Assembly (NCBI RefSeq): GCF_007827465.1
Contig: NZ_VISL01000001.1
Location: forward strand, 501,001 to 565,000
Origin: Dokdonia sp. Hel_I_53
Lineage (GTDB): Bacteria > Bacteroidota > Bacteroidia > Flavobacteriales > Flavobacteriaceae
Direction: 5' to 3'
DNA length: 64,000 nucleotides
The position numbers and the translations under genes are program-made. The notes beneath the pieces are model-generated. The model was not told the DNA's origin, ran no database searches, and saw only the letters and a list, made by a program, of their open reading frames with translations. How positions within the stretch are numbered: position 1 is the stretch's first letter; every line of letters begins with the position of its first letter. This document shows, piece by piece, positions 45,432 through 61,601 of this stretch.

Positions 45432-45764
45432 TAGAAACGAATTCTACTTGAAAATAAATGTATAAGCGGTGTATAAGAGATTGAGTGAGGAACAATTTTT
45501 ATATGATTTCAAACTTTCATATAACACTAAGAAGTGGTAGTCTAACCTTTGAGCACTTCAAAATATCACGTGAAGTAATACGTGTATAGAAAATATCGAA
45601 ATTAAATTAAACCAGTGTAATTCTGAGTCTACTTCCCAATACAAAATGTAATGCAATACTGATTATCAGGTAATTAACTATAAATAGATACAAATAAGCA
45701 ACAAAAAGTGTTGAATTATAGCTAATTAAGGACTAAAGATAGGAAAATCGGGAGTTGTAAATAT

Positions 45765-45796
45765 AAAAAAACCGCCCCCAAATGAGGACGGTTTTT
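45765..45796. terminator. Bidirectional terminator after the DUF6266 gene
   Basis: AAACCG and CGGTTT, with partly pairing inner C- and G-rich arms, are flanked by an A-run and a T-run. The hairpin lies 20 bases past the DUF6266 stop and can end transcription of that minus-strand gene. Confidence 0.75.
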
Positions 45797-45816
45797 CAAG
45801 AAAACGTCAATCGCTA

Positions 45817-46458
45817 TTAAGCAACTGTTACAGAACCTAAATAAGAGCTATTCGCTACTTTAGAGCCATCTTCTGAGATAAACGCTAAGAATACCTCTAC
45901 ATCTTCACCTGTGTATTCAGAAGGCACGGAAATACTTTCTGTTCCTGCTGACCTTACTGGTCCAGCTGTGGTAAATACACTTTCTCCTCTTGTAGCATTG
46001 AAAAGCAAGATTAATGCTTTATCAGTAGCCATTGCACTTCCACTTCCAGAGTTATCTGTCCAGGTTACATCTACTGTTGCAGCACTTGGAGAAGTAGCCG
46101 CTCCACCAACTGCACCTGTAAGATTTCCACGAGTTACCAAAGAGTTTGCGTAGTCAATAGCAAAACTTGGATAAGCTCCTGTAATTGCATTGTTCAAGTT
46201 ATAAGACATTGCAGCGTTAAACTGTGTCATCTTGTTCGCATACAACTTGAAACCAACTCGCAAAAAGTCTGTCATTGGTTGCAGGAAGCGAAGTACCGTT
46301 GAAAACTTTGAGCGTTGGTCAACTTGTCCTTCGGTTCTTGGGTTCGCTACACTGGAAGGTTTAATTCTTAGGTAATCAATGCCCTTCCAAGTTCCACCGA
46401 TTACATTCCCAACCTGTCCTGAGACACCACCGAGAATACCTTGATTAATTTTTCCCAT
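45817..46458 (-). CDS. DUF6266 family protein
   Basis: This 213-residue protein of a Bacteroidetes family of unknown function begins with the characteristic GKINQGILGGVSGQVGNVIGGTWKGIDYLR and contains RTEGQVDQRSKFSTVLRFLQP and the conserved Tyr-Ala-Asn-Lys-Met-Thr stretch (residues about 75-80). The C-terminal half (about 115-213) is a beta-rich, Gly/Ser/Thr-rich region resembling a fibronectin-like domain with WTDNSGSGSA. There is no signal peptide or membrane segment. It is a single-gene unit with its own terminator. Whether it belongs to the chromosome or to the transferred element is not clear. Confidence 0.75.
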   Translation of the reverse strand: MGKINQGILGGVSGQVGNVIGGTWKGIDYLRIKPSSVANPRTEGQVDQRSKFSTVLRFLQPMTDFLRVGFKLYANKMTQFNAAMSYNLNNAITGAYPSFAIDYANSLVTRGNLTGAVGGAATSPSAATVDVTWTDNSGSGSAMATDKALILLFNATRGESVFTTAGPVRSAGTESISVPSEYTGEDVEVFLAFISEDGSKVANSSYLGSVTVA

Positions 46459-46635
46459 CTTTTCTATATTTTTTGGGGTTCAACAAATGTTCGGACTTGG
46501 CACGGACTTGACTCGGCTTTGTCCCTTTTCAACTAATATACTTCAATAACTATGCATTAGTTTAGTCAGGGTTGTTGTTGCTTTTCTTTGCTCTTTTTTG
46601 CCTATAAGAAATTGATTTTATGACAGATGCAGCGT

Positions 46636-47070
46636 TCAAGCCGCACCTGTTTTATTCATCAACTTATAGAAGATTGCCTTTTTGGCGGTATCAATCATTT
46701 TTAATGAAAGCTTGAGTTTTTCCTCATTAATTTCTAAGAGTTTTAGGTGGTGAATTGACTGGTGAAATAACTGCGGATGTTTACTTGCAATATTTTCACT
46801 ATCTCGAAGGTGCTTTTTAATATCTCCAATCGTTATAAATGGAATTACAGAACCTTTTAGATAGTAATGGAATGATTTAGATTTCCATAATCCGAAGCAA
46901 AGCCAATACATAAAATCCTTATCGGATTGATTGGTCGTGATGCAGACAAAGCAATTCGGACAAGGTTCATTCAGCGGTTTTCCGCTATTCAATCCTTTAT
47001 TCAATATAAAGAAATGAGGTTCGGAATAATTCAGGTTTAATCGGTGGGTTTTGATGCGAAACGTTTTCAT
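46636..47070 (-). CDS. Hypothetical protein, resembles DUF6943 family of conjugative elements
   Basis: The protein of about 144 residues, starting MKTFRIKTHRLNLNYSEPHFF, contains NKGLNSGKPLNEPCPNCFVC with a Cys-x2-Cys pair, then FMYWLCFGLWKSKSFHYYLKGSVIPFITIGDIKKHL. I recognise this arrangement from small proteins carried by Bacteroidetes integrative elements (DUF6943), but I give no function. The reading frame extends further upstream, to 47217, with low-complexity Phe-rich sequence overlapping a structured RNA-like element, so the ATG at 47070 (or the one at 47082) is a better start. The gene is isolated, with 177 bases before DUF6266. Confidence 0.55.
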   Translation of the reverse strand: MKTFRIKTHRLNLNYSEPHFFILNKGLNSGKPLNEPCPNCFVCITTNQSDKDFMYWLCFGLWKSKSFHYYLKGSVIPFITIGDIKKHLRDSENIASKHPQLFHQSIHHLKLLEINEEKLKLSLKMIDTAKKAIFYKLMNKTGAA

Positions 47071-47168
47071 ACAGTGAGCCATTAAATATTTGCTCGCTTC
47101 GCTTCGCACATTCATTTTTAAAAGAGAAAAGAAAAAAGGAAAAAAAATAAAAGAGAAAGCTCTGTTAC

Positions 47169-47296
47169 AGGCGGGTATGGAAGGGTTGTCAAGGTTTTTG
47201 GAAAAAATACTACCCAAAGGGTGGAGATTTTTATCAAAACCCGTAGGGCTTGACCTTGAAAATCCCTTTGAGCGTTGGCATTGAGCGAACCCGCCT
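47169..47296. ncRNA. Candidate structured RNA element, copy A
   Basis: Nested complementary arms are visible: outer AGGCGGG/CCCGCCT (47169-47175 with 47290-47296), then AAGGG/CCCTT (47181-47185 with 47264-47268), TCAAGG/CCTTGA (47189-47194 with 47254-47259), and an apical CTACCC-AAA-GGGTGG hairpin. The core around the apical hairpin, with A-run before and AGATTTTT after, is shared with copy B about 390 bases away. The strand is not determined. No protein-coding signal fits this segment better. Confidence 0.5.
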
Positions 47297-47346
47297 ATAT
47301 TTGCTTTCCTCTGTTATTTATTGACTTATTATATACTTCTAAGGAG

Positions 47347-47378
47347 AAAAAAAAAGAGCCCCCTAAAAGGGAAGCTCT
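47347..47378 (-). terminator. Minus-strand rho-independent terminator
   Basis: AGAGC/GCTCT (47355-47359 with 47374-47378) and CCC/GGG form a stem, next to a long A-run at 47347-47355, which is a U-run on the minus strand. It would end a transcript coming from about 47540. Confidence 0.75.
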
Positions 47379-47540
47379 GATAATGATAACTCTAACCAAA
47401 ATAAGCGAATGGTGTAATCTGTAACACCGCAATGAACAACGCCTAAAAAGAATGGACGACCTGAGTAACGAACACCCGCTAACAACCAGCGGCTACCACA
47501 ACGGACTGAAAAAAGTGACTTATACATAATGAAATAAATT
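47379..47540 (-). ncRNA. Candidate small RNA ending at the 47347-47378 terminator
   Basis: Upstream of the minus-strand terminator are two further hairpins: GGTGT/ACACC (47411-47415 with 47424-47428) and CCGCT/AGCGG (47476-47480 with 47488-47492). A near-consensus -7 element (TATGTTTA) lies on the minus strand around 47551. A short frame of 62 codons (47551-47363) covers the same strand, but it ends within the terminator stem and has an unusual composition (many Arg, Gly, Cys and Phe), so I favour RNA over protein. Confidence 0.4.
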
Positions 47541-47563
47541 AAATTAAACATAGTGCCGTATCA

Positions 47564-47678
47564 CAGGAACGGTGCGATTGGTGCAAGGGCTGTGGGAAAA
47601 AAATACTACCTGAAAGGTGGAGATTTTTTTATCCAACAGGCGAAGCGAACCCTTGTGGCTCTCGCATCCGCACGCCTG
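47564..47678. ncRNA. Candidate structured RNA element, copy B
   Basis: This has the same architecture as copy A with different pairing bases: outer CAGG/CCTG (47564-47567 with 47675-47678) and GTGCG/CGCAC (47572-47576 with 47669-47673), middle CAAGGG/CCCTTG (47584-47589 with 47650-47655), apical CTACCT-GAA-AGGTGG. The shared core reads GGAAAAAAATACTACC before and GGTGGAGATTTTTTT after the loop. Paired changes between copies (C-G to T-A in the apical stem and different outer arms) argue for selection on structure. Confidence 0.55.
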
Positions 47679-47699
47679 TACCTTTGCTCTATGTTTGAG

Positions 47700-48588
47700 T
47701 TTTTTATTTCTCTATAATTGGATTGAGAATTAGACTGACTGTGGCAAACTGTATTAATTGAAGGATTAAATCAAAAGACAGATTTCTAAAAGAAACTAAG
47801 TTCAATTATAAACTGGAATGTGTATTGTTAGTCAAATCGTGCGTAAACGCAGGTAAAAACAGCCTTGAGCTAATCGGCTGGACAATGGCTGCAAGTAGTG
47901 AGGCACGAACGGATTGCGGACTTTGGACAAGCAACGCGAGCCGCCTGCGAGTGGAGCAAGGGTGCTACCAACAGAAGCCCTGATAAGGGCGGTTTGTAGC
48001 TATGTGTGTAGTGGAACGTAGCCTTTTTGTAATTTTTCTTTACACAAAAAGGCGGAGTGAAACGGAACTTACACAAGGCTTACCGCTTTAATAGCCAGAG
48101 CGATAGCGGAGGCAAATCAATCAGCATTAAGCCGCAGCCCGTAGCGACCCGCAGGCGAGCAAAATTATGGGTAGTGGTTGGATTTTTTGCGACTGACTGG
48201 AGGAACGGAAGGAAGTGGCAAAAAAGACAAAGGAACTACCGTGACAACTGACAGAGGAACGCAATAAAAGTGACAAGCTGCGTAGCTTTAGCGAAGCACC
48301 CAAAGGGCATTGCAGCTCTTTTTTTGACCTTTAAAAATTGAAGTATTCCAAAAAATGTGCTGTAATGGCTTGGCGATTTTATTTGCTGACGACCGAAGGC
48401 GGAACACCGCTTTACCTGCGTTTGGATGTGCGTTGGGAAAAGCAAGTGCAGGGCTGAATGAATTGTAGTGCAACGGAAATGAATGAAGGACTTCTCTTGC
48501 TGTGCGTTGCAGGAAGTGGGTGATTGTAGTAAGTGAGGTACGAGCGAACGAAAAGAACCTACTGGAAGCAAATGGCTGTGCGGTGGGA
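47700..48588. other. Gene-poor, comparatively GC-rich element backbone
   Basis: No convincing gene is seen. The stretch is richer in G and C than its surroundings and contains a perfect 10-bp stem-loop GCCTTTTTGT/ACAAAAAGGC (48021-48030 with 48044-48053) and GCCC/GGGC around 47973. Short frames, for example GTG-started 48057-48251 on the + strand, have basic, tryptophan-rich, low-plausibility products. Similar non-coding blocks are usual in Bacteroidetes integrative elements; an origin of transfer or decayed genes are both possible. Confidence 0.4.
48021..48053. repeat. Perfect 10-bp inverted repeat
   Basis: GCCTTTTTGT and ACAAAAAGGC are separated by 13 T-rich bases. It could act as a transcription terminator-like hairpin or a protein site. 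No gene adjoins it directly. Confidence 0.6.
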
Positions 48589-50673
48589 TTATATTGATTC
48601 TACTTGTTCTTCAAATGCTTGTTCAATCAATTCCATTACATAATCCAAATCATTAAGATTCTCTAAACCTACTTCAACATCTCCATTACCCCATCTACCT
48701 AAACCTGATACATCTTTACAAATACCTTTCGGGTCTTTAATACGGTCAAATTCAGTGTTCAATGAAAGACGTAATCTTTTCTTTTGAGGAACAACATCAA
48801 CGAAATTTGTTTGTGCTTTAAATGCTATGTATAGCTTTTTAAATTCTACTCTTACCGAAGCATCTAAATTTAAAACTCGTTTTTCAAGATTCTTGTACAA
48901 TTCCAACATATCACCTTGTAAGTGGTCATAATGTTCAATGTTATAAACCGCTTGTTCTTTAGTGGTTTCAGGCTCTTTGTATAACTCTAATCTATCATTA
49001 GATAATTTAGGCTTTTGCCATACTGTACAGGCTCTTTCAGCTAATTTGGAAGCTCTTTTGAGTATAGCATCTTCATTCCAAGTTGTAGCTTCTCTTACTG
49101 AGGAATTTAAAAACAAAGGACTTGTATCAAAACCACCTTCTATTGATTTCTTATCAGCAAATGGTCTATCTGATAATTCTGAATTATATCCGGTTAACGA
49201 AAGATTACCTAATGAATGTAAATATTTGTCTTTTACTCTTTCCCAATTCTCACCAAGTTCTTGTTGCCATTGTGGAGATACATTCTGATTTTGAGGTAAA
49301 ATGTGTTCTATTGTATAGTTTTCAGCATTAACCAATTCTTTACGTTTCCAGTTTTCAAGAGATTCTAATAAGTAGTTTCTTGACCTAAAACTGTAAACGT
49401 CTTTAACTTGTAATTCCTTTGTGAATTCAGCATCTGAAGGGAAACGTCTATAACCATCCATTAACAAGAATGCAGCTTTAACTGATTCCAAATAGGTTTC
49501 TCTTTTAATTCTTTTGTAAAGGGTTGCAAAGGTTTTATTGAGACTGTTTGTTGGAATACCACAAATGGCTCTTCTGAATACATAATTGGAAACCAAGGAT
49601 ATGATTTCAATAAACTCATCTTTGTTTATTTGTTCTTCCTCAAAATCGCCATATACAGCCAATAAGAAAGGATATGAGGTATCAATTTTAAGTTTTGTTA
49701 TCTCTTTTAATTTCTTAGCTATTTCGGTGTCTTGCTCCTTTAATAGTGCTATACGTACATAGAATTTTGAATATCTGTGTAAACTCTTTATGGCATCTTC
49801 AACGGTTTTAAAGCCGTTTTTAGAATTGAGAAACCTTTTGTAAGTCTCATACACAAGATTTATTTTAGGAATGGAAGCTTCCTTCATTGTGAGATAATCA
49901 CGGATAAACCAAGCAAGAGCACCAATATTTTCACCAAAGCTTTGTTCCATTGGATACCAATATTTTTCATAGAGTACATCTTGAAGTTCTAAAGGCTGAC
50001 CCATTAATATGTAATTTCGTATCAAATCGGCTTGTGATAAGTCTAACCCTGTAGAGTTCAAACTCTCAAATATTAACTGTGGATTGTCTTTGTCTCTTTC
50101 AAGAATTACATCAACTATAATCAACTTCTTAATACCGTGGTAAATGGCTTGAACATTCTCAGAGTGATATTTCCCTTTGAAAAAATTATAGTTATCTAAT
50201 ACCTTTTTAGAATAGTCCCCGTCAATTTCTATTTCATCAATAAGTTTGGTAAAAGTAGATTTGTCTTTACGAGTTAGAAGCAACTTAAATTTAGAGTCAT
50301 CCTTTCTATGCTTATTTACTAAATAGGTTTCTTGTATTTCTTCCCAAGTCTCATCTTCCAATGAAACATCTTCGTGTTCCTGTAGATAGTGAATAAGAGC
50401 AAGAAGCATTAAGGAAACTGTAGTAAGTCTTTGTTGGCCATCAATTACAAGTAATTCGGGAACACTGGTAATTGGAGAGTTACCTGGTTTAAAATAAACT
50501 ATTGAACCTACGAAATGAGAAAGCTCTGTAGCATCATTACCTACTCTTAGAATATCCTCAAACAATTGCTGACATTGCTTAATTTGCCAAGAATAGGTTC
50601 TCTGGTATATTGGAATAGTAAATTGCTTTTTTCCATCTAAGAGGCTTAATAGTTGTGCTTGTGTTGCTTCCAT
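48589..50673 (-). CDS. GmrSD-like DUF262-DUF1524-DUF5655 protein
   Basis: This 694-residue protein has a DUF262 (ParB/GmrS-like nucleotide-hydrolysing) domain with IPIYQRTYSW (20-29), the diagnostic IDGQQRLTT (77-85) and FESLNSTGLDLSQADLIRNYI (202-222). A DUF1524 (GmrD, HNH-like nuclease) domain follows with YTIEHILPQN (453-462) and LGNLSLTGYNSELSD (488-502). A C-terminal DUF5655 domain (about 577-694) completes it. Families with this build cleave modified DNA in type IV restriction. The gene is the last of the defence operon, starting 20 bases after the Argonaute stop. It may be the nuclease effector; that role is inference. Confidence 0.87.
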   Translation of the reverse strand: MEATQAQLLSLLDGKKQFTIPIYQRTYSWQIKQCQQLFEDILRVGNDATELSHFVGSIVYFKPGNSPITSVPELLVIDGQQRLTTVSLMLLALIHYLQEHEDVSLEDETWEEIQETYLVNKHRKDDSKFKLLLTRKDKSTFTKLIDEIEIDGDYSKKVLDNYNFFKGKYHSENVQAIYHGIKKLIIVDVILERDKDNPQLIFESLNSTGLDLSQADLIRNYILMGQPLELQDVLYEKYWYPMEQSFGENIGALAWFIRDYLTMKEASIPKINLVYETYKRFLNSKNGFKTVEDAIKSLHRYSKFYVRIALLKEQDTEIAKKLKEITKLKIDTSYPFLLAVYGDFEEEQINKDEFIEIISLVSNYVFRRAICGIPTNSLNKTFATLYKRIKRETYLESVKAAFLLMDGYRRFPSDAEFTKELQVKDVYSFRSRNYLLESLENWKRKELVNAENYTIEHILPQNQNVSPQWQQELGENWERVKDKYLHSLGNLSLTGYNSELSDRPFADKKSIEGGFDTSPLFLNSSVREATTWNEDAILKRASKLAERACTVWQKPKLSNDRLELYKEPETTKEQAVYNIEHYDHLQGDMLELYKNLEKRVLNLDASVRVEFKKLYIAFKAQTNFVDVVPQKKRLRLSLNTEFDRIKDPKGICKDVSGLGRWGNGDVEVGLENLNDLDYVMELIEQAFEEQVESI

Positions 50674-50693
50674 ATATTTTTAATGCTTTATCA

Positions 50694-52793
50694 TTATAAA
50701 AACCAAAGGTTATCTTTTCCAAATTCGGGTATTTCGTTACCGTCAAAATGTGGGAGCATTTCTGCAACCATTTCAGGGTATTTTATGGTAACTGGTAAGT
50801 TTTGTTGTCTTACCGATTTCCAATACATTCTACTGAATTGATATACTTGGTCAATAAGTTCTCTAACTGTTTTTATGTCGTCTACCAATTCCTTTTGAGT
50901 ACAGTAGATTTTTAGTTTTATCGGAAATGGGAAACCATCATAGAAATTAAACTGATTATTGCTGTATCGGGTATTGTTGAACAACAGGAATTTGTTGTAG
51001 CCAATATTGATGTATGTACCGCTTAGTGGCATTAAGTCTTTCCAACCTAAATCAAATGCTACAATATCTGATGATTCTGTTTTATTAATGGAAACAATGA
51101 ACACTGGTATTCCTAATCCTAATCTTTTCAATCCATCTTCTATGGGTTGTAACTCGTCTTGGCTCATTGTCTTGTAAAAATGAATTACCAAGCGTTTTAT
51201 ATCAGGATTTAGTGCTGCATAATCTTTCACCGATTTTATAATAGAACCCGCCAATTCCCTTGTTTGGTCTTGTTGGAAACATTCAAAACGATTGAACCTA
51301 CCATTATTAGAAAAGCTAAATGCACTTCCTATGTATTGAACATCAAAATCAGGGTTTTTAAATGCACCTACACCAACTACTAATTCTTTCTTTACTGTGT
51401 TGTCCAAACGCCAAGGAATACCGTTTAATTTGGCTAAAATAGCTATGGCAATGTTGGGTAAGCTAAAGTAATATTTGTCGTTAGTCATTACTTTTTCAGC
51501 ATCTATTACCTGAGAGGAAATACCTTTTTTAAGTAGTAGTTCTTTTAGTTTATAATAAATCTTTCTTCTGGACTTATCAGGTGAGTTTTTTGAAAATGGA
51601 CTTATGTAAATGGCTATATATTGAATGTCGGGTTCAAAGTGCTTCTCTGTAACCTTAGTGTAGATTTCAGACCAAGGATTCTCTCTATCCTCAAACATTA
51701 TACTAAAACCTTTTTCTGTGTGGTAAGGCGTATGAATGAACTTTGATAAACCTCCAAAACCTCTTTCAGTACCTCTAAAAAACCTATCCATTTTCATAGC
51801 TACCTTAACATCATCTTTATGAAAAATGAAGAAGAAATGAATTTTTGAAGTATCGCTAAAATCAAAAGGACCGTGATTTTTCATACCGTTCATTGGAACA
51901 ATGTCGGTCTTTCCTTCACCAAATAATAACTGATTACTATTACTCTTTACTCTTCCTGTTTTAATTTCCTCTACTGGAATAAAGCCATTGGAATTGATAG
52001 GAATAAGGTTCTTAAATTCTTCTGTATTTAGATAGGTGCTATAAAAGTAGTCGATAGCATCCTTGAACTTTTTGTACTTGTTTGATTTATTTGGTGCTTC
52101 CGTGGTTTCCCCCAAAGCATCCCGAATATCGAAGTTCCAAACAGGAAATACTTGGTCATAAGCTCTTTTACCTGCACTTGGCAATTCATCAAATTTATAC
52201 AGTCCATTTTCAAATATTACCCAATTAAAAGCCTTTGGTGAAACAGACTCTTGAATTTCTTCAACTGATTGTTTATAGACTTTTGAAGTACCCTCAAAGG
52301 TTACAAGTAGTTCCAGTTGCTTTGATACCGTCTTGAATTGTACTTTAAGCGAATAGCGGTCGAATAGATTAAATTGACCCGTTTTATCGTACTTCTTACT
52401 TTGTAGCCATATTTCTGTATCACTTATAAAATTAGGTTTGACTAAAAAGCCTTTACCCTTGAAATACTCGTGAATTTGTGAGTTGTAGTATCGTTTTAAC
52501 AGAGATACTGATAAACCCGAATTATGAACTCTAAAAGAGCGTTCTTCTCCGTTTTCATCTTCCTTTGTTTCGTAGCTTGGATTAACCGCTTTTGTAACTG
52601 GATAAAAACTTTCTATGCCTTTGGTGTAAGATGTGTAGTAATGCTCTTGTTCCCCAAACTCCTCAATAACCTCATCAGGAACTAAACTATGATACACCCT
52701 TGTAAGTGATTCATTTTCTACATTGGTAAAGTAGAGTGTTAGTTTTTCCTGTGGATGATTAAAAGTTAGTATGTTGAAACAGTGATTTTGCAT
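50694..52793 (-). CDS. Prokaryotic Argonaute (MID-PIWI) with lost catalytic residues
   Basis: This 699-residue protein has a MID domain with YYKLKELLLKKGISSQVI (413-430; Tyr-Lys-Gln 5'-guide-binding pattern) and IAILAKLNGIPWRL (450-463), then a PIWI domain from ELVVGVGAFK (470-479) through RLVIHFYKTMSQDEL (534-548), PVFIVSINKTES and the terminal YWKSVRQQNLPVTIKYPEMVAEM (657-679). The DEDX catalytic site looks dead: the first Asp is Gly476, and the second (HxD-type) is Tyr540 in IHFYK. The N-terminal 350 residues form N/linker regions with no clear PAZ. It probably binds guides and targets and recruits a partner. It is flanked at 19-20 bases by co-directional methylase and DUF262 genes. Confidence 0.83.
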   Translation of the reverse strand: MQNHCFNILTFNHPQEKLTLYFTNVENESLTRVYHSLVPDEVIEEFGEQEHYYTSYTKGIESFYPVTKAVNPSYETKEDENGEERSFRVHNSGLSVSLLKRYYNSQIHEYFKGKGFLVKPNFISDTEIWLQSKKYDKTGQFNLFDRYSLKVQFKTVSKQLELLVTFEGTSKVYKQSVEEIQESVSPKAFNWVIFENGLYKFDELPSAGKRAYDQVFPVWNFDIRDALGETTEAPNKSNKYKKFKDAIDYFYSTYLNTEEFKNLIPINSNGFIPVEEIKTGRVKSNSNQLLFGEGKTDIVPMNGMKNHGPFDFSDTSKIHFFFIFHKDDVKVAMKMDRFFRGTERGFGGLSKFIHTPYHTEKGFSIMFEDRENPWSEIYTKVTEKHFEPDIQYIAIYISPFSKNSPDKSRRKIYYKLKELLLKKGISSQVIDAEKVMTNDKYYFSLPNIAIAILAKLNGIPWRLDNTVKKELVVGVGAFKNPDFDVQYIGSAFSFSNNGRFNRFECFQQDQTRELAGSIIKSVKDYAALNPDIKRLVIHFYKTMSQDELQPIEDGLKRLGLGIPVFIVSINKTESSDIVAFDLGWKDLMPLSGTYINIGYNKFLLFNNTRYSNNQFNFYDGFPFPIKLKIYCTQKELVDDIKTVRELIDQVYQFSRMYWKSVRQQNLPVTIKYPEMVAEMLPHFDGNEIPEFGKDNLWFL

Positions 52794-52812
52794 AATTAAA
52801 AGAGTATTTGAT

Positions 52813-54657
52813 TTAGTTGTCCATTACTACCTCATATTTATCAGATACAAACTCATTAATGCTTCTTTTAGATTTTAAGCTTAAAAGCTCTTGTTTCTCA
52901 CTATCAGATAATTCGCATACCCCAAAATGCTTCACATAGTTTTTAGCATAAGAATAATAGCCTGAAGAATAAGGTTTACTTGTGTTTTTCATATAGTAAT
53001 CGAATACATCAGATTCAAGTATTCTTTTTAGAAGAAGGAGTTCTTCCTCTGATTCAGAAAAAATGGCATAGCCGCAATAAATAAGCATATCCAAATTATT
53101 GGTGAATACGAAATGAGGACTTTTCGCCATATAAGGGAATAAGAGTTTTAATCCCTTATCATTTAAGGCTTGTGTTCTGCCAAAAGCATACCACGCACCA
53201 TAATCCCCATTTCCTTTATCTCTACCATCAAGTTGACTTTTATAATCTAAAAGATACTTATATGCTAAAGGAAATTTTTCTTGGAGCTTTTCTTCCTTTA
53301 TCAAAGAGAGTGGAGCTATACCATTTGTATAAGGATAAATTAATTTTTCTTTTACTTCTTCAATCTCGCTTTCAGTTTTCAGAATATTAGGTTTGATAAT
53401 CTCTCTACAAATGGATTTTTCAACCGAGTATTCTTTCTTATCTTTTATGAAGTAATAATTTGATTCATCTTCCTTTATAGGTTTAAAAATATAAACATCA
53501 TTGCTTAACGTAGCGATTCCATTTTTTATAGTGTATAATTGATCTAAACTTGGCCCTGCATTTTCAATTCTATTAATGTTAGAAACAATTTGTGCATTAT
53601 TTAAAAGCCAACCTCTATGATGGTTTAATGTGCTATATTCAAGAATTGAATATTTGAATTGAGTTTTATTTAAAATATCCTTTGCGGTAGCCTTTGTGTA
53701 AGAAATATTACCATCATTTTGATTATCAATAAAACAGATGCAAGTATAAGTTAGTCGCTTTTCAAATATTTGCTCGTGACCAAAATTGATAATGGTTAAA
53801 GGAAACTCATTATGTGATAAATAATTTCTTAGACCTCTTGCATTAACGCTTTTGAAAAATGAGTTAACAGTAATATATCCAAGAACACCATTAGGGTTTA
53901 ACCAATTCATACCAATTTCAAAAAAGGGAAGGTATAAATCTGGATTACCAGAAGAAGCAACTTTCCAATTTTTAAGTAGCTTCTTTGAAGCACTATCTAT
54001 ATGTTTTGCTCTAACATAAGGAGGGTTCCCTACGACTATATTAAAGCCTTTATTATTTTTTACTGACGAAATTTTATACCAATCAAAATTCAAGGCATTA
54101 CCTTCAAATAGATTAAAACTAAACTCTTTATCATCTTCTCCTTCTCTAATTGCTAAAAGAGATAGCAATATCTTAGCTCTTTTCAAACTGTTAGGACTAA
54201 TGTCAAGACCATACAACTGAGAAAAAATATCGCTATATGCACTATTGGTTTGTTTTTTGAGTTTTTTGGCTGCTGAATAAAGGAACGCACCGCATCCACA
54301 AGAAATATCAGCTATCAATATTTTATTTGGTCTATCTGTGAATTTTATTAGTGTATTGTCTACTATATAATCTTTTATTACATCAGGTGTATATACAGCC
54401 CCATTAGTTTGTTGTTCACTCTTTGGAATGGCTATTTCGAAAAGTTCAATCAATGATTGGGTAGAAAGTTCAGAATTAATTTTAGATAAAAGATTGAGCA
54501 CTAATTCATTGTCTTTTCCAAGAAGATGATCTTTTATCAATTTATTCTTAACGTCATAAATACCTCTTGAATACAGGTAAATAGTTGTGAATAACTGATC
54601 CAAAAAGGTATTGTCTTCTGAATGCTTATTTACTATATTTTCAAATATCTTTTTCAT
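52813..54657 (-). CDS. N6-adenine DNA methyltransferase, Eco57I/TaqI-like
   Basis: This is a 614-residue gamma-class amino-methyltransferase. A YTP motif (89-91) precedes SAM motif I ADISCGCGAFL (116-126), YGLDISPNSLKRAKI (149-163) is motif II/III, and the catalytic motif IV NPPY lies at 211-214 in VVGNPPYVRAKHI. The C-terminal half (about 330-614) is a TaqI/Eco57I-like recognition domain with YGAWYAFGRTQ and KPYSSGYYSYAKNYVKHFGV. No nuclease motif is seen. The start lies 1 base after the stop of the type IIG-like gene, so the two are coupled. It may methylate a second sequence or the other strand of an asymmetric site. Confidence 0.85.
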   Translation of the reverse strand: MKKIFENIVNKHSEDNTFLDQLFTTIYLYSRGIYDVKNKLIKDHLLGKDNELVLNLLSKINSELSTQSLIELFEIAIPKSEQQTNGAVYTPDVIKDYIVDNTLIKFTDRPNKILIADISCGCGAFLYSAAKKLKKQTNSAYSDIFSQLYGLDISPNSLKRAKILLSLLAIREGEDDKEFSFNLFEGNALNFDWYKISSVKNNKGFNIVVGNPPYVRAKHIDSASKKLLKNWKVASSGNPDLYLPFFEIGMNWLNPNGVLGYITVNSFFKSVNARGLRNYLSHNEFPLTIINFGHEQIFEKRLTYTCICFIDNQNDGNISYTKATAKDILNKTQFKYSILEYSTLNHHRGWLLNNAQIVSNINRIENAGPSLDQLYTIKNGIATLSNDVYIFKPIKEDESNYYFIKDKKEYSVEKSICREIIKPNILKTESEIEEVKEKLIYPYTNGIAPLSLIKEEKLQEKFPLAYKYLLDYKSQLDGRDKGNGDYGAWYAFGRTQALNDKGLKLLFPYMAKSPHFVFTNNLDMLIYCGYAIFSESEEELLLLKRILESDVFDYYMKNTSKPYSSGYYSYAKNYVKHFGVCELSDSEKQELLSLKSKRSINEFVSDKYEVVMDN

Positions 54658-54658
54658 T

Positions 54659-57600
54659 TTACATCCAATTATTTAAGAATGTTACCCTATCAATATTTCG
54701 ACCTCTTTCATTAAAAAAGGCTATCTGATCTTCATTTAAATCATATAAAGAATAGACTAAGTTGTCCAATTGATTCCATAATTGTCTTAATACAGGTATT
54801 AAAGTATTTCTGTTGTTTGGGTTTGTACGATATTGATCTTGTCTATTTTTAATATCTCTTGAAACTGTAGCAAGTTGACCTACTAATTCTGGAGAGTTAT
54901 TGAAATTTTCGACAGGAAATGGAATTGGCTCTAAAAACTGCTTGTTAAACTTGAAATATCCATTGGACTGAGGATTTGCAATTGAACGACCTAAAACAGA
55001 AAATACTACTGAGTTAATAATCCCTGATACAGCAAAAAGGCGGTCTTCCGAAACTTCATCAATTTGGATAAAAAACATATTTGCATTGTCACAATAAATT
55101 TTATCAGATAAAGTGACAGTAGCAAAAGTGTCCATTGTAGTCATTGGTACGAGAACTTTTGGATATATGTGCTCTATATTATTAGCTCTGGTGTAAATGT
55201 GCCAAAAATCTTCCGTATATCTTTGTGGGTTTCTGATTGGCATTGTTTGAACACCTCCATTAGCTACAGGCCCTTCTAACCTCTCTCTCTGTCCATCTAA
55301 ATAAGCTCCGGCTAACGGATAACGTTCACAAAATTCAGGATAAGAAATTTCTCTTTTTTCTCCATCAATTATATCATAAGGAAATATTACATAGGTATTT
55401 GTAGTGTCAGGTCTAAAAGGGTAAAATTGGACATTACACATTAAGGGTCTGCAAGCTCCTTCCTCTATTGTAATATTATCTTGCCAATTTGAACGTCCTG
55501 TTATTATACCATCTGTAACATTTGTAGCGGTGATATGATAAGCCTCATTCTTTAAAGCTTGTAAACCTACTTTCACATTTACAACATTACCGAAAGTTCC
55601 TAATCCTGCCAGATCAAGTTTTACGCTTAATAAACTTGGGTCGTCAAAACTCCAAGGATTTGCAGTAATTGATTCACTTGGCAAGTTATAAAATTGTGTT
55701 TCATCAGATTCAGCAATCAATAATTCACGCAGATAAGCGGGTAGTGTTTCAATATTGTCTTCAGTTTTATGATAATAAAATTGTTCTTTAGGAGATTTAT
55801 TTAGAACAAGTGTCGCCACATATGTCATTTTTCCTTTAAAAATACTTTGCGTTGTAAAATCGACTATTGTTGAGAGGTGACTTCCAGATGAAATTAATTC
55901 ACGAATCTTACTACCATAATCTGTTTTAAAAAAACGTTTCTGAACAATAAAACCTAAACGACCATTGTCATTCAATATAGACAATCCTCTTTCTAAAAAA
56001 GGGACTGCAAGATCTATTTTGCCATTATTCCCTGTTGTATATGTATCCTTGATAAAGGAATGCATAAAAGGTAATTCAGTATTAAAATGTTTAACTTCAA
56101 CATAAGGAGGGTTACCCACTATGAAATCAAATCCTCCTTTATTGTCGAAAACATCACGGAAATAATCATCAGTTTGCCAATCAAAAGGTCGAGTTTTGAA
56201 AAGCTCTTCATCATTGTCTAAAATTTCAGGATATTGAGTAAGAACAGATGAATCAACAAGAGAATTACCACACCTTACGTTTAAGCCTATTCCATTTAAT
56301 ATTTGCTCACCAAACAGACCTATTTGTTCTGAAGCTTCAGGGTATTCTTCATTGTCAATAACTTTGAGAGCAAGAGACATTTTTGCAACCTCTACAGCTT
56401 CAGGATCAATATCTACACCATAGATACAGTTCTTTATTATAGCCTGCTTCCCTCTAAGGTTCAATATGAGTTCAGTTTCTGTTTGACTGAACAAATGATT
56501 ATATGCTTCGTTCGGTGAATTACTCTGAATGTCGAGAACAATATCTTCTAAATAATCATAAAGACCTATTAAGAAAACACCACTACCACAAGCAATATCT
56601 AATGCAGATATACTCAATACACCTTCAACACCTGAATCTATTAGATTTTGCTTTATTAGGGTTCTTTTTATTATATCATCTACTAAGAATTGCGGTGTAC
56701 TTACTGCTCCTTTTGATTTGATGTACTCAGTTTTTAGAATATCTGAAACACCCTCCTCAGTTAATATCAACTTTTTAGAAAGAAAGATTTCATAAATATC
56801 ACCAAGAAGTTTAGTCGGGATTACATCAAACCTATAAGGAGAGGGGTAATATAGATATGATAATAGCTCGTCAAAAATTTCATTATTAATTGTGAGATTA
56901 TGAATACTGTCAATACGCTCAAATAAAGGACCATCATAATGTTGATAGAAATCTAAATATGAAGATTCTTTAAATCTCTCCCAAAAACCTTCTTCCTTAA
57001 ATTGTAGCAATAGAGCATTTTCTTCTAATCTCCTTGCTTCACATACTCTAATAAAAAGAATTCTATTTATAATAACCTGAACAACATAGCTTAGCAATGA
57101 TGTGTCATTTGCTACGACTTCATTATTATTTTCAAGAATATTTCCCGCTAATGAAAGTCTAAAACCAGATAAGAAATTCGCAAAAGCAAAATCAGGGCTA
57201 ACTTTTTTAATCCCTTCAACCTCGTTTCCTGAATACAATTCTGCCAATCTACCACCATAAATATTAGGCTTAAACAGGTGATTGTCTAAAAGCTCGAAAT
57301 TATCAATATACTCATCTACAGTTAAGAAAATTCTACCAAACCCAGCTGCTTGTTCTCTATTGGGGATATAACCACAATCATAAATCGCAAACTGTTCAAA
57401 ATTTGAGATAAAGGCACAAGGTGCTAAAATTGACCAGCCATATGATTTAATTTGAAAGGATGCAGAAGTATCTGTATTCAGGTTTACAGTAATATCCTTT
57501 GCATCTAAAAATGTGAGTTTTTCTTTTCCTAATTTAAATGTGTAATCAGGTCGAGTACTGGTAGATCCAATTTCTCTTAATCTATCCCTTTCTGCTTGTG

Positions 57601-57784
57601 TTAGTGTTTTTTCCTGTAGGATTTGAGAAGTGTCTTGTACATCCCAACCAAATATACCCAACATTTCATTTAGCCAAGTACGAATAGTCTCTTCTGAAGT
57701 TAAGTCGAGGCGACCTTCTTCCTTAAATTGGTTATATCGATTAACAAGATTTGTTAATGCTTCACGTCTTTGTTCGATGCTCAT
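54659..57784 (-). CDS. Type IIG-like restriction-modification enzyme (Eco57I family)
   Basis: This 1041-residue fusion has an N-terminal PD-(D/E)XK nuclease domain: RPDYTF (P79, D80), LDAKD (D94, K96) and QIKSY (Q111-x3-Y115), all in place for activity. Helical linkers follow, then an N6-adenine methylase with motif I ALDIACGSGVFL (394-405), GVDIDPEAVEVAKMSL (456-471) and NPPYVEVKHF (558-567). The C-terminal part (about 700-1041) looks like a target-recognition domain. It would cut and methylate DNA as one polypeptide. It overlaps the XRE regulator gene by 4 bases (ATGA). BREX PglX is similar in the methylase region, but no other BREX gene is present. Confidence 0.88.
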   Translation of the reverse strand: MSIEQRREALTNLVNRYNQFKEEGRLDLTSEETIRTWLNEMLGIFGWDVQDTSQILQEKTLTQAERDRLREIGSTSTRPDYTFKLGKEKLTFLDAKDITVNLNTDTSASFQIKSYGWSILAPCAFISNFEQFAIYDCGYIPNREQAAGFGRIFLTVDEYIDNFELLDNHLFKPNIYGGRLAELYSGNEVEGIKKVSPDFAFANFLSGFRLSLAGNILENNNEVVANDTSLLSYVVQVIINRILFIRVCEARRLEENALLLQFKEEGFWERFKESSYLDFYQHYDGPLFERIDSIHNLTINNEIFDELLSYLYYPSPYRFDVIPTKLLGDIYEIFLSKKLILTEEGVSDILKTEYIKSKGAVSTPQFLVDDIIKRTLIKQNLIDSGVEGVLSISALDIACGSGVFLIGLYDYLEDIVLDIQSNSPNEAYNHLFSQTETELILNLRGKQAIIKNCIYGVDIDPEAVEVAKMSLALKVIDNEEYPEASEQIGLFGEQILNGIGLNVRCGNSLVDSSVLTQYPEILDNDEELFKTRPFDWQTDDYFRDVFDNKGGFDFIVGNPPYVEVKHFNTELPFMHSFIKDTYTTGNNGKIDLAVPFLERGLSILNDNGRLGFIVQKRFFKTDYGSKIRELISSGSHLSTIVDFTTQSIFKGKMTYVATLVLNKSPKEQFYYHKTEDNIETLPAYLRELLIAESDETQFYNLPSESITANPWSFDDPSLLSVKLDLAGLGTFGNVVNVKVGLQALKNEAYHITATNVTDGIITGRSNWQDNITIEEGACRPLMCNVQFYPFRPDTTNTYVIFPYDIIDGEKREISYPEFCERYPLAGAYLDGQRERLEGPVANGGVQTMPIRNPQRYTEDFWHIYTRANNIEHIYPKVLVPMTTMDTFATVTLSDKIYCDNANMFFIQIDEVSEDRLFAVSGIINSVVFSVLGRSIANPQSNGYFKFNKQFLEPIPFPVENFNNSPELVGQLATVSRDIKNRQDQYRTNPNNRNTLIPVLRQLWNQLDNLVYSLYDLNEDQIAFFNERGRNIDRVTFLNNWM

Positions 57785-58122
57785 TGTTTGTCAAAATCAA
57801 GTGAGCCTTGTTCCAAGCTCTTGTTCTTTAAATATTTTATTTTCTCCTCTGCTACTTTAAGAATTTCATTTGGATTTTCTTCTGCCAATAAATCATTTGC
57901 TACTTTATCACTCATTAGAATTAAACCAAGAGTATTTTCATCCTCACTAAAAATTTCAGCTAAAATGGGAATCATTTCTTTATTTGCTGATCTTTCACCT
58001 CTTTCGATTTTACTGAGAGTAGATGGGTCAATATCAAGTGATGCAGCTACCTTTCTAAGTGGCAAACCTGATTGCTCCCTTAAACTCCTTATGTATTCTC
58101 CAAATGTTTCGTTTATAGACAT
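57781..58122 (-). CDS. XRE-family transcriptional regulator (restriction-system controller-like)
   Basis: This 113-residue protein has an N-terminal helix-turn-helix of XRE/Cro type, FGEYIRSLREQSGLPLRKVAASLDIDPSTLSKIERGERS (quoted in part; about 7-45), and a C-terminal helical tail with many Lys and Glu (about 75-113). It is the first gene of the defence operon and is translationally coupled to the type IIG-like gene. Controller proteins of restriction systems have this position and size. An inverted repeat overlapping its promoter (58152-58164) suggests self-regulation. Confidence 0.88.
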   Translation of the reverse strand: MSINETFGEYIRSLREQSGLPLRKVAASLDIDPSTLSKIERGERSANKEMIPILAEIFSEDENTLGLILMSDKVANDLLAEENPNEILKVAEEKIKYLKNKSLEQGSLDFDKQ

Positions 58123-58151
58123 TTCTTGTTTTTTCTGGAAAAATTAATTTG

Positions 58152-58171
58152 GACATTAATTGTCAAATATA
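58152..58171 (-). promoter_or_regulatory. Defence-operon promoter with overlapping operator-like inverted repeat
   Basis: On the minus strand TATATTTG (58171-58164) fits TAnnTTTG, with ATG (one base from TTG) 19 bases upstream. GACA-N5-TGTC (58152-58164) overlaps its end and the expected transcription start. A regulator bound there would block transcription, so this is probably the XRE operator. Confidence 0.6.
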
Positions 58172-58255
58172 AGATTGTTTTCTAAAATCTCATTCCCTTA
58201 TTATAAAAACTTATTGGTCTGAGAATTTTAAGGAAATAGAGGAAACCAAGGATAG

Positions 58256-60073
58256 TTAATCCTTAGCTTCCTTAATATCCTCATTTTCCTCAATTGAAAG
58301 ATTTATATAATTGTCCTGTTGTTCACGGTGTATGAGGTTGGACTTTACGAAACCAGTGATATAACCTTCTGCTGTTTTTGCAGGAATGTTTAGTTTTTTG
58401 GCTACTTCCAAATACTTCTGACGGTTAAAGTTTTTTGGTAAAGCGTATAGGAATTTCTCTTTACGGTTCATTCGGCTTGGTTTGGTTTCTTCTTGTGGAA
58501 GCTCTCCAAACACTTTGCTTGAATGTTTTACTAATACTTTAATCATAGCCAAGGAAGCTTGAAAATCTCTTTCCTCACATACAAGTTTGTTAGATGTATC
58601 ACCAGTTTCTAAAATCCTTAATGCTGAAAAAAGCATACAGAAACGGAATGCAATTAAACCTAATCTTCGAATGGTAGCCATATAATCCAATCCTTGAAGA
58701 TTGAGGTATTTTCCTTGTATCTCGCTAAAGAAATGATTGAATTGTTCTTGTTGGTCGGCTGTTAAATAGAATTGAAATTCTCCGTTGCTTTTGAGTAACT
58801 TATACAATTCGTAGAACTGGTTCCCTAAATTCTCAAAGTAATCATCCAGTCCGTTGTCTGTAGTGCTTGCAAATACGTTTTTCCAAACAGGCTTTACATT
58901 CATAAAGTAGAAAATAAAGCGGCTGAATAAGCCGTTTTCTGCACTTGGAATAAGAGCTGAAACTTGTTTTGGCGTACCCGAAAGAACTGTGGAAAGACAA
59001 GGGCTTTCAATATCTACAAATTCACGGTCTGTTCTGCGGTAATAGGAAATAGTTTCGTGGTGGAATGCTTTTCTGAAACCATCACTATAATTTCCGTAAT
59101 CGCTTTTAAAGGCGTGTGCTAAAGTGTCTCCTTCGGTTTCAAAAATTAATCCTTTGCCATCACTATCACCCAACAATTGATATGCACCTGTTGAACTATT
59201 GTTTGCAGGAATAAAGAGCATTTTTTCAGGTGGTCGAGCTGGTTTTTCTACACCTTCAACTTTACCTTTATTAGCGTTGTATTCCGCCATTTCCAATTCA
59301 AAGTGTTGTTTGTGCAATTTGGCTTCCTCACGTAATTCCTTGTGAATAGGGTTTACCAATTGGCGACAATGCACCAAACGTCCTTTTCCTGCGGATGCTT
59401 GAGCTGTGATAAATAGAAAGAGGTTACTAAACACTTTCTTACCGTCATAAATACCAAACAGCTTCGGTAAACAGGCACTAATAGACACCAATGAACCTAA
59501 GAGCAATATATCTCTTTCTTCATCTGATGTAGCTACAGCAATCACTTGTTGCAGGTATTCAGGAAGCTCAGGATATAAGGATTTAGGAAATGTTGGCATA
59601 ACCTCCTTAATCGGTTCTTCTTCCTGGTGTTCTTGAACAGGAGGAGCTTTTGATGATTTGTAATTGCTATTGGTAGCTTTATACTGTTCATTGGTTTGTG
59701 TTACAATAGAAACTCCCGCTTGTTTGGCAAGGAAGAAAAAGGTTTTAAGCGATACACCTTGACCTTTAGACTTTAGGCAATTGTCAAATTGTTTGTCGCA
59801 TTCTTTAGCATTGTAACCCGAATAGTACTGACTAACTCTTTGAAATAAACCTCTTCCAGACTCTCCAAATTCATCAGCAAAAGCGAAACCGATATTTATC
59901 CAATCGTTGTAATTGGGGGCAATATCAATATGATTAGCTTCTATATTCTGAATGACTTTTTCAACTTCTGAATTGTTGTCTGTAACTGGTTGATAATTTT
60001 GTTCTGTATGTTGCTGCTGTTGGTTTGGGTTTTCCATCCACTCCAACGGATTAAACGTTTTCTTTTCCATCAT
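58256..60073 (-). CDS. DUF3987 domain-containing protein
   Basis: This 605-residue protein is often found beside BT4734-type proteins in Bacteroidetes integrative elements. The N-terminal part (about 35-125) resembles a primase C-terminal (PriCT) domain with NYNDWINIGFAFADEFGESGRGLFQRVSQY. The main domain (about 165-560) contains LFITAQASAGKGRL, a Walker-A-like loop (about 224-237), and FSRFIFYFMNVKPVW. The C-terminus has a helical winged-helix-like region (LPKNFNRQKYLEVAKKLNIPAKTAEGYI). It probably works in element replication or in control of excision; exact function is unknown. It starts directly at the stop of the next gene upstream. Confidence 0.8.
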   Translation of the reverse strand: MMEKKTFNPLEWMENPNQQQQHTEQNYQPVTDNNSEVEKVIQNIEANHIDIAPNYNDWINIGFAFADEFGESGRGLFQRVSQYYSGYNAKECDKQFDNCLKSKGQGVSLKTFFFLAKQAGVSIVTQTNEQYKATNSNYKSSKAPPVQEHQEEEPIKEVMPTFPKSLYPELPEYLQQVIAVATSDEERDILLLGSLVSISACLPKLFGIYDGKKVFSNLFLFITAQASAGKGRLVHCRQLVNPIHKELREEAKLHKQHFELEMAEYNANKGKVEGVEKPARPPEKMLFIPANNSSTGAYQLLGDSDGKGLIFETEGDTLAHAFKSDYGNYSDGFRKAFHHETISYYRRTDREFVDIESPCLSTVLSGTPKQVSALIPSAENGLFSRFIFYFMNVKPVWKNVFASTTDNGLDDYFENLGNQFYELYKLLKSNGEFQFYLTADQQEQFNHFFSEIQGKYLNLQGLDYMATIRRLGLIAFRFCMLFSALRILETGDTSNKLVCEERDFQASLAMIKVLVKHSSKVFGELPQEETKPSRMNRKEKFLYALPKNFNRQKYLEVAKKLNIPAKTAEGYITGFVKSNLIHREQQDNYINLSIEENEDIKEAKD

Positions 60074-60994
60074 CTATAAATATTTTGGATTGATAAATAC
60101 ATTGGGGTCGTGAGGTAAAAAACAAGCTCTTGAAATGTCTTTACCTGAACCATCTACCTCAAAGCTGTATGTGTGTTGGATGTAATTGGCAACCGCCTTG
60201 AAATAGTCTTGATGCTTGACCTTGGTTAACTCAATAGAAATAATCCATTTTAATCCATCACCAGAAGGGGATGTAAAAAGAAGTTCAGTTTGAAAGTATT
60301 CATCTTTAAGAAGTTCTTCTTTTAAGGTGGAAATATTACTGATATGGTCAAAGTCAATCGTTAGAAGTCCTGAATGCTTTTTAAGGTGTTTATCATTTCG
60401 CTTTGAAAATGCACCTGAGAATGTGACATAATCGAAATTAAATGCCTTGTATTTTCGGGCTTCCTTTACATCTTGGATATTGCGTAGTGTACTTGTACAC
60501 GTAGCAAATTCATTGCCTTGTATGAGGTTGTAAACCTCTATCAAGGTTATCTCTTTTGTGGGTACTACATTAGTAACAGGCTTTTTGAAATAGCTGAATA
60601 CTGGTGGTATTGGTTTTATAATTTCAGGTTCAGGTTCCGTAAATATTTCATCCTCCTGATTATAAAAACCGTTTTTCTGACCAATACGCAAATGCAATTC
60701 TTCATTTAGCTTATCCAGTAATTCCTGACCAGAAAACTTAAAATGAAGTGCTGCGAAATCAAATACATTACCGTCTGCAATAGCTTCTTCGCTATCAGTA
60801 TGCACCGCACAATTATCTACTACCTTAACCGTCAATGTAGGTTTATCTTCATTGAATGGGTTTTTAGTGAGTTTACAGTCCCTTCCCGAAAGGGAAAGAA
60901 CTGTTTCGCCCGGATAGTACTGTCTTAACACATAGGCATAAATATTTAGGCCGTAATGTGTTTTGCTCAATATGGCTTCCTTATTTATTTCCAT
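60074..60994 (-). CDS. BT4734/BF3469-type protein with VirE N-terminal-like domain
   Basis: This 306-residue protein has an N-terminal toprim/CHC2-primase-like section (about 1-90, including KLTKNPFNEDKPTLTVKV and FDFAALHF) and a BT4734/VirE_N-like domain (about 170-300, with FDYVTFSGAFSKRNDKHLKKHSGLLTIDFDHISN and FTSPSGDGLKWII). Such proteins accompany DUF3987 proteins in Bacteroidetes conjugative and mobilisable elements. It is contiguous with the DUF3987 gene and overlaps the HTH gene by 14 bases. A role in DNA replication of the element is inferred. Confidence 0.8.
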   Translation of the reverse strand: MEINKEAILSKTHYGLNIYAYVLRQYYPGETVLSLSGRDCKLTKNPFNEDKPTLTVKVVDNCAVHTDSEEAIADGNVFDFAALHFKFSGQELLDKLNEELHLRIGQKNGFYNQEDEIFTEPEPEIIKPIPPVFSYFKKPVTNVVPTKEITLIEVYNLIQGNEFATCTSTLRNIQDVKEARKYKAFNFDYVTFSGAFSKRNDKHLKKHSGLLTIDFDHISNISTLKEELLKDEYFQTELLFTSPSGDGLKWIISIELTKVKHQDYFKAVANYIQHTYSFEVDGSGKDISRACFLPHDPNVFINPKYL

Positions 60995-61573: not shown

Positions 61574-61601
61574 CTTATTATGGGTTTGAAAATTTGTAAA
61601 A

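Follow-up and report, generated by a model that had tools for sequence, protein, structure and literature searches.

Which genes does an Argonaute belong with when restriction genes surround it? The question arises from the window, by which we mean the whole analyzed stretch of 64,000 nucleotides from Dokdonia sp. Hel_I_53 (contig NZ_VISL01000001.1, positions 501,001 to 565,000), where a prokaryotic Argonaute gene lies on the minus strand within a tight row of five genes that a first-pass annotation took for one operon and, as a hypothesis, one functional unit. Our analysis places these genes in an 18.5-kb integrative mobile element (45630 to about 64115) that is inserted at the 3′ end of mnmE, an assignment that is well supported, and the constant partner of the Argonaute is the backbone of this element, not the restriction genes. 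The explanation we favor, and regard as probable, is a mobile element with the apparently dead Argonaute as a core gene, a swappable and often XRE-led cassette of mostly restriction-modification genes, a second variable slot, and a guide-directed exclusion role. The five genes are listed below.

57781-58122, minus strand: XRE regulator, opening the variable cassette (Pfam HTH_3)
54659-57784, minus strand: type IIG restriction-methylation enzyme, variable cassette (Eco57I/N6_Mtase; PADLOC REase_MTase_IIG, 564 bits)
52813-54657, minus strand: N6-adenine methylase of the Eco57I family, variable cassette (Eco57I/N6_Mtase; PADLOC MTase_II, 403 bits)
50694-52793, minus strand: long Argonaute, predicted to be catalytically dead, core gene of the element (Pfam Piwi; PADLOC pAgo, 957 bits)
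48589-50673, minus strand: GmrSD-like DUF262-DUF1524-DUF5655 protein, variable cargo after the Argonaute (GmrSD_N, GmrSD_C and DUF5655)

The list of open reading frames (ORFs) bears out the coordinates given in the first-pass annotation, Pfam domains and PADLOC models agree with its gene identities, and it rightly saw a defense gene set with overlaps or gaps of at most 20 bases: the XRE and type IIG genes overlap by 4 bp, and the following spacings are 1, 19 and 20 bp. The type IIG enzyme joins a nuclease motif and an N6 methylase in one chain; the methylase is recognized by Pfam, the full length matches the PADLOC IIG model, and the PD-(D/E)XK motif (RPDYTF...FLDAK) was read from the sequence by eye, with no model match. 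By Pfam, the last protein has both the DUF262 and the DUF1524 domain of GmrSD type IV enzymes. Promoter-like sites in the window are at the level of shuffled sequence (64 versus 64.0) and terminator-like sites are mildly above it (18 versus 10.8, standard deviation 3.8), while the Bacteroidota-type promoter pattern has no match near the five genes and no excess in the window (3 matches versus 5.25 expected). Because these counts lie near those of shuffles and the region has no match to the Bacteroidota promoter pattern, it is from the spacing that we infer a single operon.

Whether the row is also a functional unit can be judged from the neighborhoods of related Argonautes. We scanned GTDB species genomes and took the best 80 of 268 confirmed relatives, which together with one viral contig gave 81 loci, a lower bound on the family since more relatives exist beyond these. 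For gene calling we simply took the longest ORFs; annotation used profiles derived from clusters within the 81 loci, and Pfam searches on representatives. On the strength of these neighborhoods we reject the five-gene unit. The window-type DUF262 gene follows the Argonaute in only 6 of the 81 loci, and no ORF in any of them has the type IIG protein as its best match; the second methylase is the best match in only four loci, at 24-31% identity over part of its length. The first-pass annotation had itself stated that homologous loci regularly lacking the DUF262 gene would speak against one unit, and 75 of the 81 lack it after the Argonaute.

Replacement of the cassette can be seen directly in the locus L002, where the DUF3987 and BT4734-like backbone genes are 90.6% identical to those of the window, the Argonaute 90.8% and the right end 96.7%, whereas the XRE, type IIG, second methylase and DUF262 genes have no blastn match. 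In their place L002 has its own cassette, an XRE gene with a type I system, and also an AbiJ_NTD3-AAA protein. The identities of backbone and Argonaute are paired in the same way in L003 (88.1 and 87.5%), L007 (71.6 and 71.5%) and L008 (72.0 and 72.0%). In the blastn comparison of the window with 13 of the 81 loci (L002-L014), window positions 52800-58218 had no match of at least 80 bp in any of them. A dedicated methylation-sensing system made up of the five genes, as the first-pass annotation had proposed, is therefore extremely improbable: their tight spacing, with overlaps or gaps of no more than 20 bp, would suit it, but none of the 81 other loci has this combination, and L002 carries a different cassette between backbone parts that are 91% identical to those of the window.

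The backbone is visible in 48 of the 81 loci, with type I systems in the cassette slot of 10, type III in nine, a fused HsdR_N-methylase with HsdS in five and type II in one (L009, assigned by hand on a BsuBI/PstI match), which makes 25 of 48 with restriction genes in this position. Among the nearest genes examined, 36 of the 81 loci have an XRE protein in the same cluster as that of the window. The slot after the Argonaute varies as well: apart from the six window-type DUF262-DUF1524-DUF5655 proteins, it holds a different GmrSD_N-type protein in one locus (L039, its cluster identified through L004), Fur-like proteins in 12, HMA/AraC proteins in nine, unassigned genes in 43 and genes on the opposite strand in eight, and its contents elsewhere include metal efflux and AbiJ-like genes. 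This pattern suggests that the Argonaute is a core gene and the adjoining restriction genes are interchangeable cargo.

Several side observations concern the genes that flank the Argonaute. In L008, L009, L010, L012 and L078 a Fur-like or heavy-metal/AraC regulator comes right after it, in several cases with an ATG overlapping its stop codon, and resistance-nodulation-division (RND) efflux genes follow it in L008, L009, L015, L016, L040 and L078. Apparent overlaps of 13 bp after the Argonaute were rejected as an artifact of the gene caller's start codons, several being ATGA overlaps or nearby starts. Directly before the Argonaute, three loci each carry a protein of 559 residues (L073 8299-9978, L111 12523-14202 and L113 17035-18714), for which the L073 copy gave no Pfam match and the L111 and L113 copies no PADLOC match.

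What stays constant lies upstream of the XRE gene, where replication genes and an integrase, absent from the first-pass annotation, continue on the same strand to the window edge. Together with the right end of the element and the two attachment sites, they are the following features.

L083 3100-3116 (about window 64099-64115): attL, at the 3′ end of mnmE (L083 3099-4487), just past the window
62818-63912, minus strand: tyrosine integrase, backbone, adjoining mnmE (Pfam Phage_integrase, SAM_5, Arm-DNA-bind_5)
61805-62821, minus strand: DUF6617 protein, backbone marker (Pfam PF20322, 34 bits, cut-off 27)
61274-61621, minus strand: small helix-turn-helix-like protein, backbone (ORF; label read from the sequence)
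60981-61277, minus strand: small helix-turn-helix-like protein, backbone (ORF; label read from the sequence)
60074-60994, minus strand: BT4734-like primase-polymerase (VirE_N type), backbone (Pfam PF08800)
58256-60073, minus strand: DUF3987 and PriCT-2 protein (replication helicase-like), backbone (Pfam)
58240-58272, minus strand: terminator-like hairpin between the DUF3987 and XRE genes, at the DUF3987 end (consensus match only)
46636-47217, minus strand: DUF6943 protein, right end of the element, start codon uncertain (Pfam PF22105, 173 bits)
45817-46458, minus strand: DUF6266 protein, right end of the element (Pfam PF19781, 353 bits)
45630-45646, minus strand: attR, right-hand boundary of the element (TTTTGTATTGGGAAGTA, identical to the mnmE 3′ end at 16 of 17 positions)

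The ends are marked by 17-bp repeats that lie 18.5 kb apart and are identical at 16 of 17 positions, one formed by the last bases of mnmE (TTTTGTATTGGAAAGTA) and the other by window positions 45646-45630 (TTTTGTATTGGGAAGTA). The match to L002 (96.7% over 45630-48588) breaks off exactly at 45630, as does that to L012, and the matches to L013 and L014 end at 45685; at the cassette, left homology to L002 and L003 stops just past the hairpin, at 58222 and 58227. The recurrent gene order is mnmE, helix-turn-helix protein, integrase, DUF6617, helix-turn-helix protein, BT4734-like primase, DUF3987, XRE, cassette, Argonaute and second variable slot. Allowing up to two mismatches, the att motif occurs 32 times in the mnmE sense in the 81 loci and never on the opposite strand (1.46 Mb per strand), with 13 occurrences at mnmE 3′ ends, 17 downstream of the Argonaute (in 16 loci, of which L069 and L072 appear to be one sequence) and two elsewhere. 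One of these two belongs to L058, the 14th locus with a visible mnmE, where the motif contains an N and lies past the called ORF; the other is inside the L016 cassette. Both ends are present in L073, about 18.6 kb apart with a second right-end candidate 2 kb further, and in the genome G281, about 21 kb apart with two mismatches each. The integrase, att repeats, recurrent target and variable cargo that characterize an integrative element are thus all found in the sequence.

Other features help to place the element among known kinds. Pfam scans of 12 element ORFs, which excluded ORFs of 98 and 115 residues, gave no relaxase or type IV secretion protein of the kind carried by integrative conjugative or mobilizable elements. 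The size of the element and its primase would fit a phage satellite. Phage records gave no match and plasmid records one distant match. The primase scores 64 bits against the NCBIfam model PrimPol_Db (NF040562), below the 200-bit cut-off, and its Pfam family PF08800 formerly bore the name VirE_N. A transfer RNA as integration target was rejected, none being found by ARAGORN, and a single sub-threshold Rfam match to Flavo-1 was disregarded. An exact empty site was not found; L133 and L136, from relatives of the genome that were outside the Argonaute search, give synteny only, with 65-70% matches to window positions of about 39.1-40.4 kb located about 2 to 4 kb after mnmE. In the same-genus relatives L132 and L137, different integrase-like ORFs (387 and 377 residues, read from sequence) lie at the same mnmE 3′ end, which therefore looks like a shared insertion hotspot, and one of the two loci also has a relaxase-like ORF. 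Within the element, the region 48402-48590, which overlaps an ORF without Pfam match, is 74-88% identical in L005, L006 and L011-L014.

The divergence of the Argonaute follows that of the backbone. We compared pairwise identities by Mantel tests, where n counts loci. The Argonaute correlates with DUF3987 (0.64, n = 47), BT4734 (0.66, n = 26) and DUF6617 (0.69, n = 24; all P = 0.001) and with the integrase (0.445, n = 20, P = 0.009). Values for the restriction and accessory proteins are -0.09 for HsdM (n = 17), 0.03 for HsdR (n = 19), -0.03 for Mod (n = 12), 0.14 for one Res group (n = 7), 0.17 for RhuM (n = 12) and 0.00 for the fused restriction-modification protein (n = 6). DUF3987 likewise has no significant correlation with HsdM (-0.06), HsdS (0.15), HsdR (0.25) or Mod (-0.27), and the control pairs HsdM-HsdR (0.80), DUF3987-BT4734 (0.71) and DUF3987-integrase (0.71) do correlate. 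On identical loci, the Argonaute-DUF3987 correlation compared with that of the Argonaute and a second protein is 0.78 versus -0.09 for HsdM (n = 11), 0.76 versus 0.21 for HsdR, 0.67 versus -0.18 for Mod, 0.75 versus 0.20 for HsdS and 0.64 versus 0.32 for the host MnmE. A chance build-up of defense genes in a plastic region, a defense island in which the element plays no role, would explain the many kinds of defense genes in the slot, but it is very improbable given the recurrent gene order, the att repeats at the element ends and the matched divergence of backbone and Argonaute.

We also searched a sample of 395 Bacteroidota genomes with profiles from the Argonaute and DUF6617 alignments and with Pfam models. 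The Argonaute alignment matches 24 genomes, 10 of them above 300 bits, and DUF6617 (PF20322) is above cut-off in six, the same six being found by our own alignment; two further genomes match the Pfam model below cut-off, both without this Argonaute. In all six DUF6617 genomes the Argonaute lies at a distance of 9-16 kb and the DNA in between holds restriction genes or matches to type II endonuclease models; mnmE is visible in five of them (all except G126). The chance of such a complete overlap is 4e-11 with 10 Argonaute genomes or 3e-8 with 24, figures that assume independent genomes, an assumption that holds only in part. Their cassettes are type IIG (the window's own genome), type III (G126), type I (G146 and G194), type II, with a cytosine methylase and a match to a type II endonuclease model (G057), and a type II-like one with a type II endonuclease model match and no recognized methylase (G281).

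Several results weigh against the favored explanation. The backbone is not visible in 33 of the 81 loci, 28 of which reach the edge of the fetched DNA and five of which meet an opposite-strand gene, and in L081 opposite-strand genes separate the DUF3987 match from the Argonaute. Among the 48 backbone-visible loci, the cassette slot of 11 is empty or contains only XRE or small ORFs and that of 12 contains other genes, so an element need not carry restriction genes. Four of the 10 genomes with an Argonaute above 300 bits have no DUF6617 match; in one of them, G286, a weak DUF6617-like ORF (37 bits) lies near the Argonaute, and in another, G235, the Argonaute is on a 3.9-kb contig. The Argonaute correlates weakly with HsdS (0.23, n = 24, P = 0.031) and with the host MnmE (0.32, n = 14, P = 0.037), the control pair DUF3987-DUF6617 reaches only 0.39, and the XRE protein follows neither the Argonaute (0.10, n = 37, P = 0.12) nor the restriction genes; being short and tracking nothing, it can be assigned to neither backbone nor cassette. 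The 81 loci are not independent events, as some are near-duplicates sharing long stretches, and since the element was discovered through Argonaute-linked loci, relatives that lack the Argonaute could escape detection if their DUF6617 is very different.

The same sample also bears on the DUF262 protein and the type IIG enzyme. Homologues of the DUF262-DUF1524-DUF5655 protein occur at 910, 902, 801, 554 and 473 bits in five genomes without this Argonaute, three of them inside type I restriction-modification operons (L126, L127 and L129). The 11 genomes with the best non-self type IIG matches, for which loci were retrieved, have no Argonaute match, and three of these type IIG relatives are full length at 29-30% identity. 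Since both have homologues in Argonaute-free genomes, they look like ordinary, independent restriction parts.

These findings limit an explanation modeled on BPAN, in which the guide-loaded Argonaute would detect invader DNA and activate the adjacent DUF262-DUF1524-DUF5655 nuclease, or another neighbor, and kill or clear the cell in the manner of bAgaN, bAgaS or bAgaM. The DUF262 protein lies within 20 bp of the Argonaute here, its six counterparts are spread over 39-79% Argonaute identity, another GmrSD_N-type protein follows in L039, and a DUF5655 protein directly precedes the Argonaute in five loci. The DGQQR motif and a His-Asn HNH-like stretch are kept in all seven DUF262 proteins. Song 2023 (PMC10620215) reports such activation for other long-B Argonautes. 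Against it, the loci share no constant effector, the Argonaute-DUF262 correlation is 0.30 (P = 0.09, n = 7), and homologues of up to 910 bits are found in genomes without this Argonaute. We therefore reject the DUF262 protein as a dedicated effector in general and find this explanation rather unlikely overall; it remains a rival for seven loci, the window and six others, and activation as in BPAN could operate in that minority. The protein before the Argonaute in the five loci (L020, L024, L030, L031 and L032) has 303-305 residues and a C-terminal DUF5655-like part, the L030 copy matching Pfam DUF5655, the PADLOC candidate PDC-S18 and, below cut-off, HSDR_N_2. DUF5655 is thus common to it and to the DUF262 protein of the window; a role as Argonaute adaptor is weakened by the close DUF262-DUF5655 homologues without this Argonaute, and we found no paper that mentions both an Argonaute and DUF5655 in the open-licence literature.

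What the Argonaute itself could do was judged from an alignment of 82 Argonautes. The position of the first catalytic Asp is Gly in all 82 and the third catalytic motif reads H[FY][YF]K in 81 (one gap), so that at the two of four tetrad positions checked, aligned to AfAgo and RsAgo, the DEDX tetrad is absent, in agreement with the first-pass annotation. The guide 5′-phosphate pocket, Y413, K417, Q428 and K455, is present in all 82, Y413 and K417 being the YK-type MID motif; by alignment to AfAgo it corresponds to the published pocket. The C-terminal LWFL is kept in 81 of 82 (one gap), and the protein has the full-length N-PAZ-MID-PIWI build. In the structure model, with a predicted local distance difference test score (pLDDT) of 89.6, the final residue to be aligned is 699, which stands opposite AfAgo 427 and RsAgo 777, each the end of its aligned range. 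The ratio of nonsynonymous to synonymous substitution rates (dN/dS) is 0.04-0.08 in five comparisons, indicating purifying selection. By these sequence features the Argonaute is predicted to be of the long-B type and catalytically dead, and given the conserved pocket and LWFL and the low dN/dS, it probably still binds guides and recognizes targets without cutting. In L045 (10262-13003), the Argonaute gene is split over two frames and apparently interrupted.

The element ends, Argonaute-backbone co-inheritance, cassette replacement, kept guide pocket, catalytic loss and purifying selection are computed results, and the anatomy they describe is well supported, while the mechanism is one that we infer. 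The Argonaute would be expressed as the last gene of whichever cassette is present, bind 5′-phosphorylated small guides, and mark or block, rather than cut, complementary nucleic acid from competing replicons, with destruction left to the variable restriction or nuclease genes or to host nucleases. In this role it would give the element a guide-directed exclusion layer of its own that cooperates with restriction systems and depends on no single one of them. In a broader form that we put forward tentatively, the Argonaute may be a core gene of a widespread Bacteroidota element, serve that element against rival replicons and pair in turn with type I, II, IIG and III cassettes, its guides perhaps coming from their cleavage products. 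Alternatively, it could act in maintenance, replication or segregation, or control copy number or transfer of the element, and have no part in defense. Such a role is possible because the Argonaute persists in the 11 of 48 loci where no defense cassette is seen; it is also co-inherited with replication genes, directly follows DUF3987 in three loci, and lacks nuclease residues. We consider this quite unlikely, as elsewhere the Argonaute is the last cassette gene, apart from the replication genes, and restriction genes fill the slot in about half of the backbone-visible loci and in all six sampled genomes.

The element can be compared with systems in earlier work; we did not find it described in the open-licence literature, preprints being outside coverage. 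Song 2023 (PMC10620215) lists an og_54 'VirE N-terminal domain' group, which is usually the second to eighth gene before the long-B Argonaute and whose function it defers to later work. These Argonautes share the dead PIWI, YK guide motif and full length, and the BT4734-like primase of the window is the fifth gene upstream, inside that range. According to PMC8211822, VirE_N is the catalytic domain of CAPP_B primases; since our primase matches BT4734-like_N and, below cut-off, PrimPol_Db, a class described there as VirE_N, og_54 is very probably this primase, a match made by description. The difference is that Song 2023 treats it as an associated protein, whereas here we interpret it as the primase of an element with swapped middle genes. 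In PMC5862659, BT4734-like proteins are listed among primase families and DUF3987 is a predicted replication helicase of mobile elements. The element may thus answer where og_54-type and 'no partner' long-B Argonautes of Song 2023 belong. BPAN, BPAS and BPAM share a dead long-B Argonaute in a defense context, but have one coevolving effector fixed directly downstream; over our 81 loci none is constant.

Among solved structures, RsAgo and AfAgo, with EcAgo, are the best sequence relatives, with an aligned guide pocket and no catalytic Asp at the same place; identity in structure alignments is 16-19%, and the comparison covers the proteins only. The SGI1-type islands of Gammaproteobacteria, which according to PMC8409611 occupy the 3′ end of trmE (mnmE), have the same target gene end and also occur as variants; they are likened here by target site only, belong to another bacterial group, and differ in that no relaxase or transfer gene is among the scanned element proteins. 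Ryazansky 2018 (PMC6299218) names, near Argonautes, HNH nucleases 'with DUF252 and DUF1254' (og_28), presumably DUF262/DUF1524, a PD-(D/E)XK-methyltransferase group (og_13), HsdS, lambda-repressor-like proteins and RND pumps, and states that no defined operon composition was revealed except for MID-OH Argonautes. Its neighbor classes match ours, and a mobile backbone would explain such mixed neighbors, RND pumps included; the Fur-like/AraC and RND slot may account for the reported RND association of long-B Argonautes.

Genes beside an Argonaute, then, need not be its effectors, and our results suggest that certain Argonautes work for a mobile element and are not tied to one fixed defense operon. 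The element ends are defined well enough for excision to be examined, and the natural swaps, in which related Argonautes stand beside different restriction systems, make functional coupling directly testable. Makarova 2009 (PMC2743648) found no significant association between prokaryotic Argonautes and mobilome genes (P = 0.63); in the same paper a reviewer raised the idea of Argonaute systems as selfish elements. The present family is a case in which an apparently dead Argonaute acts like a core gene of an element of that kind.

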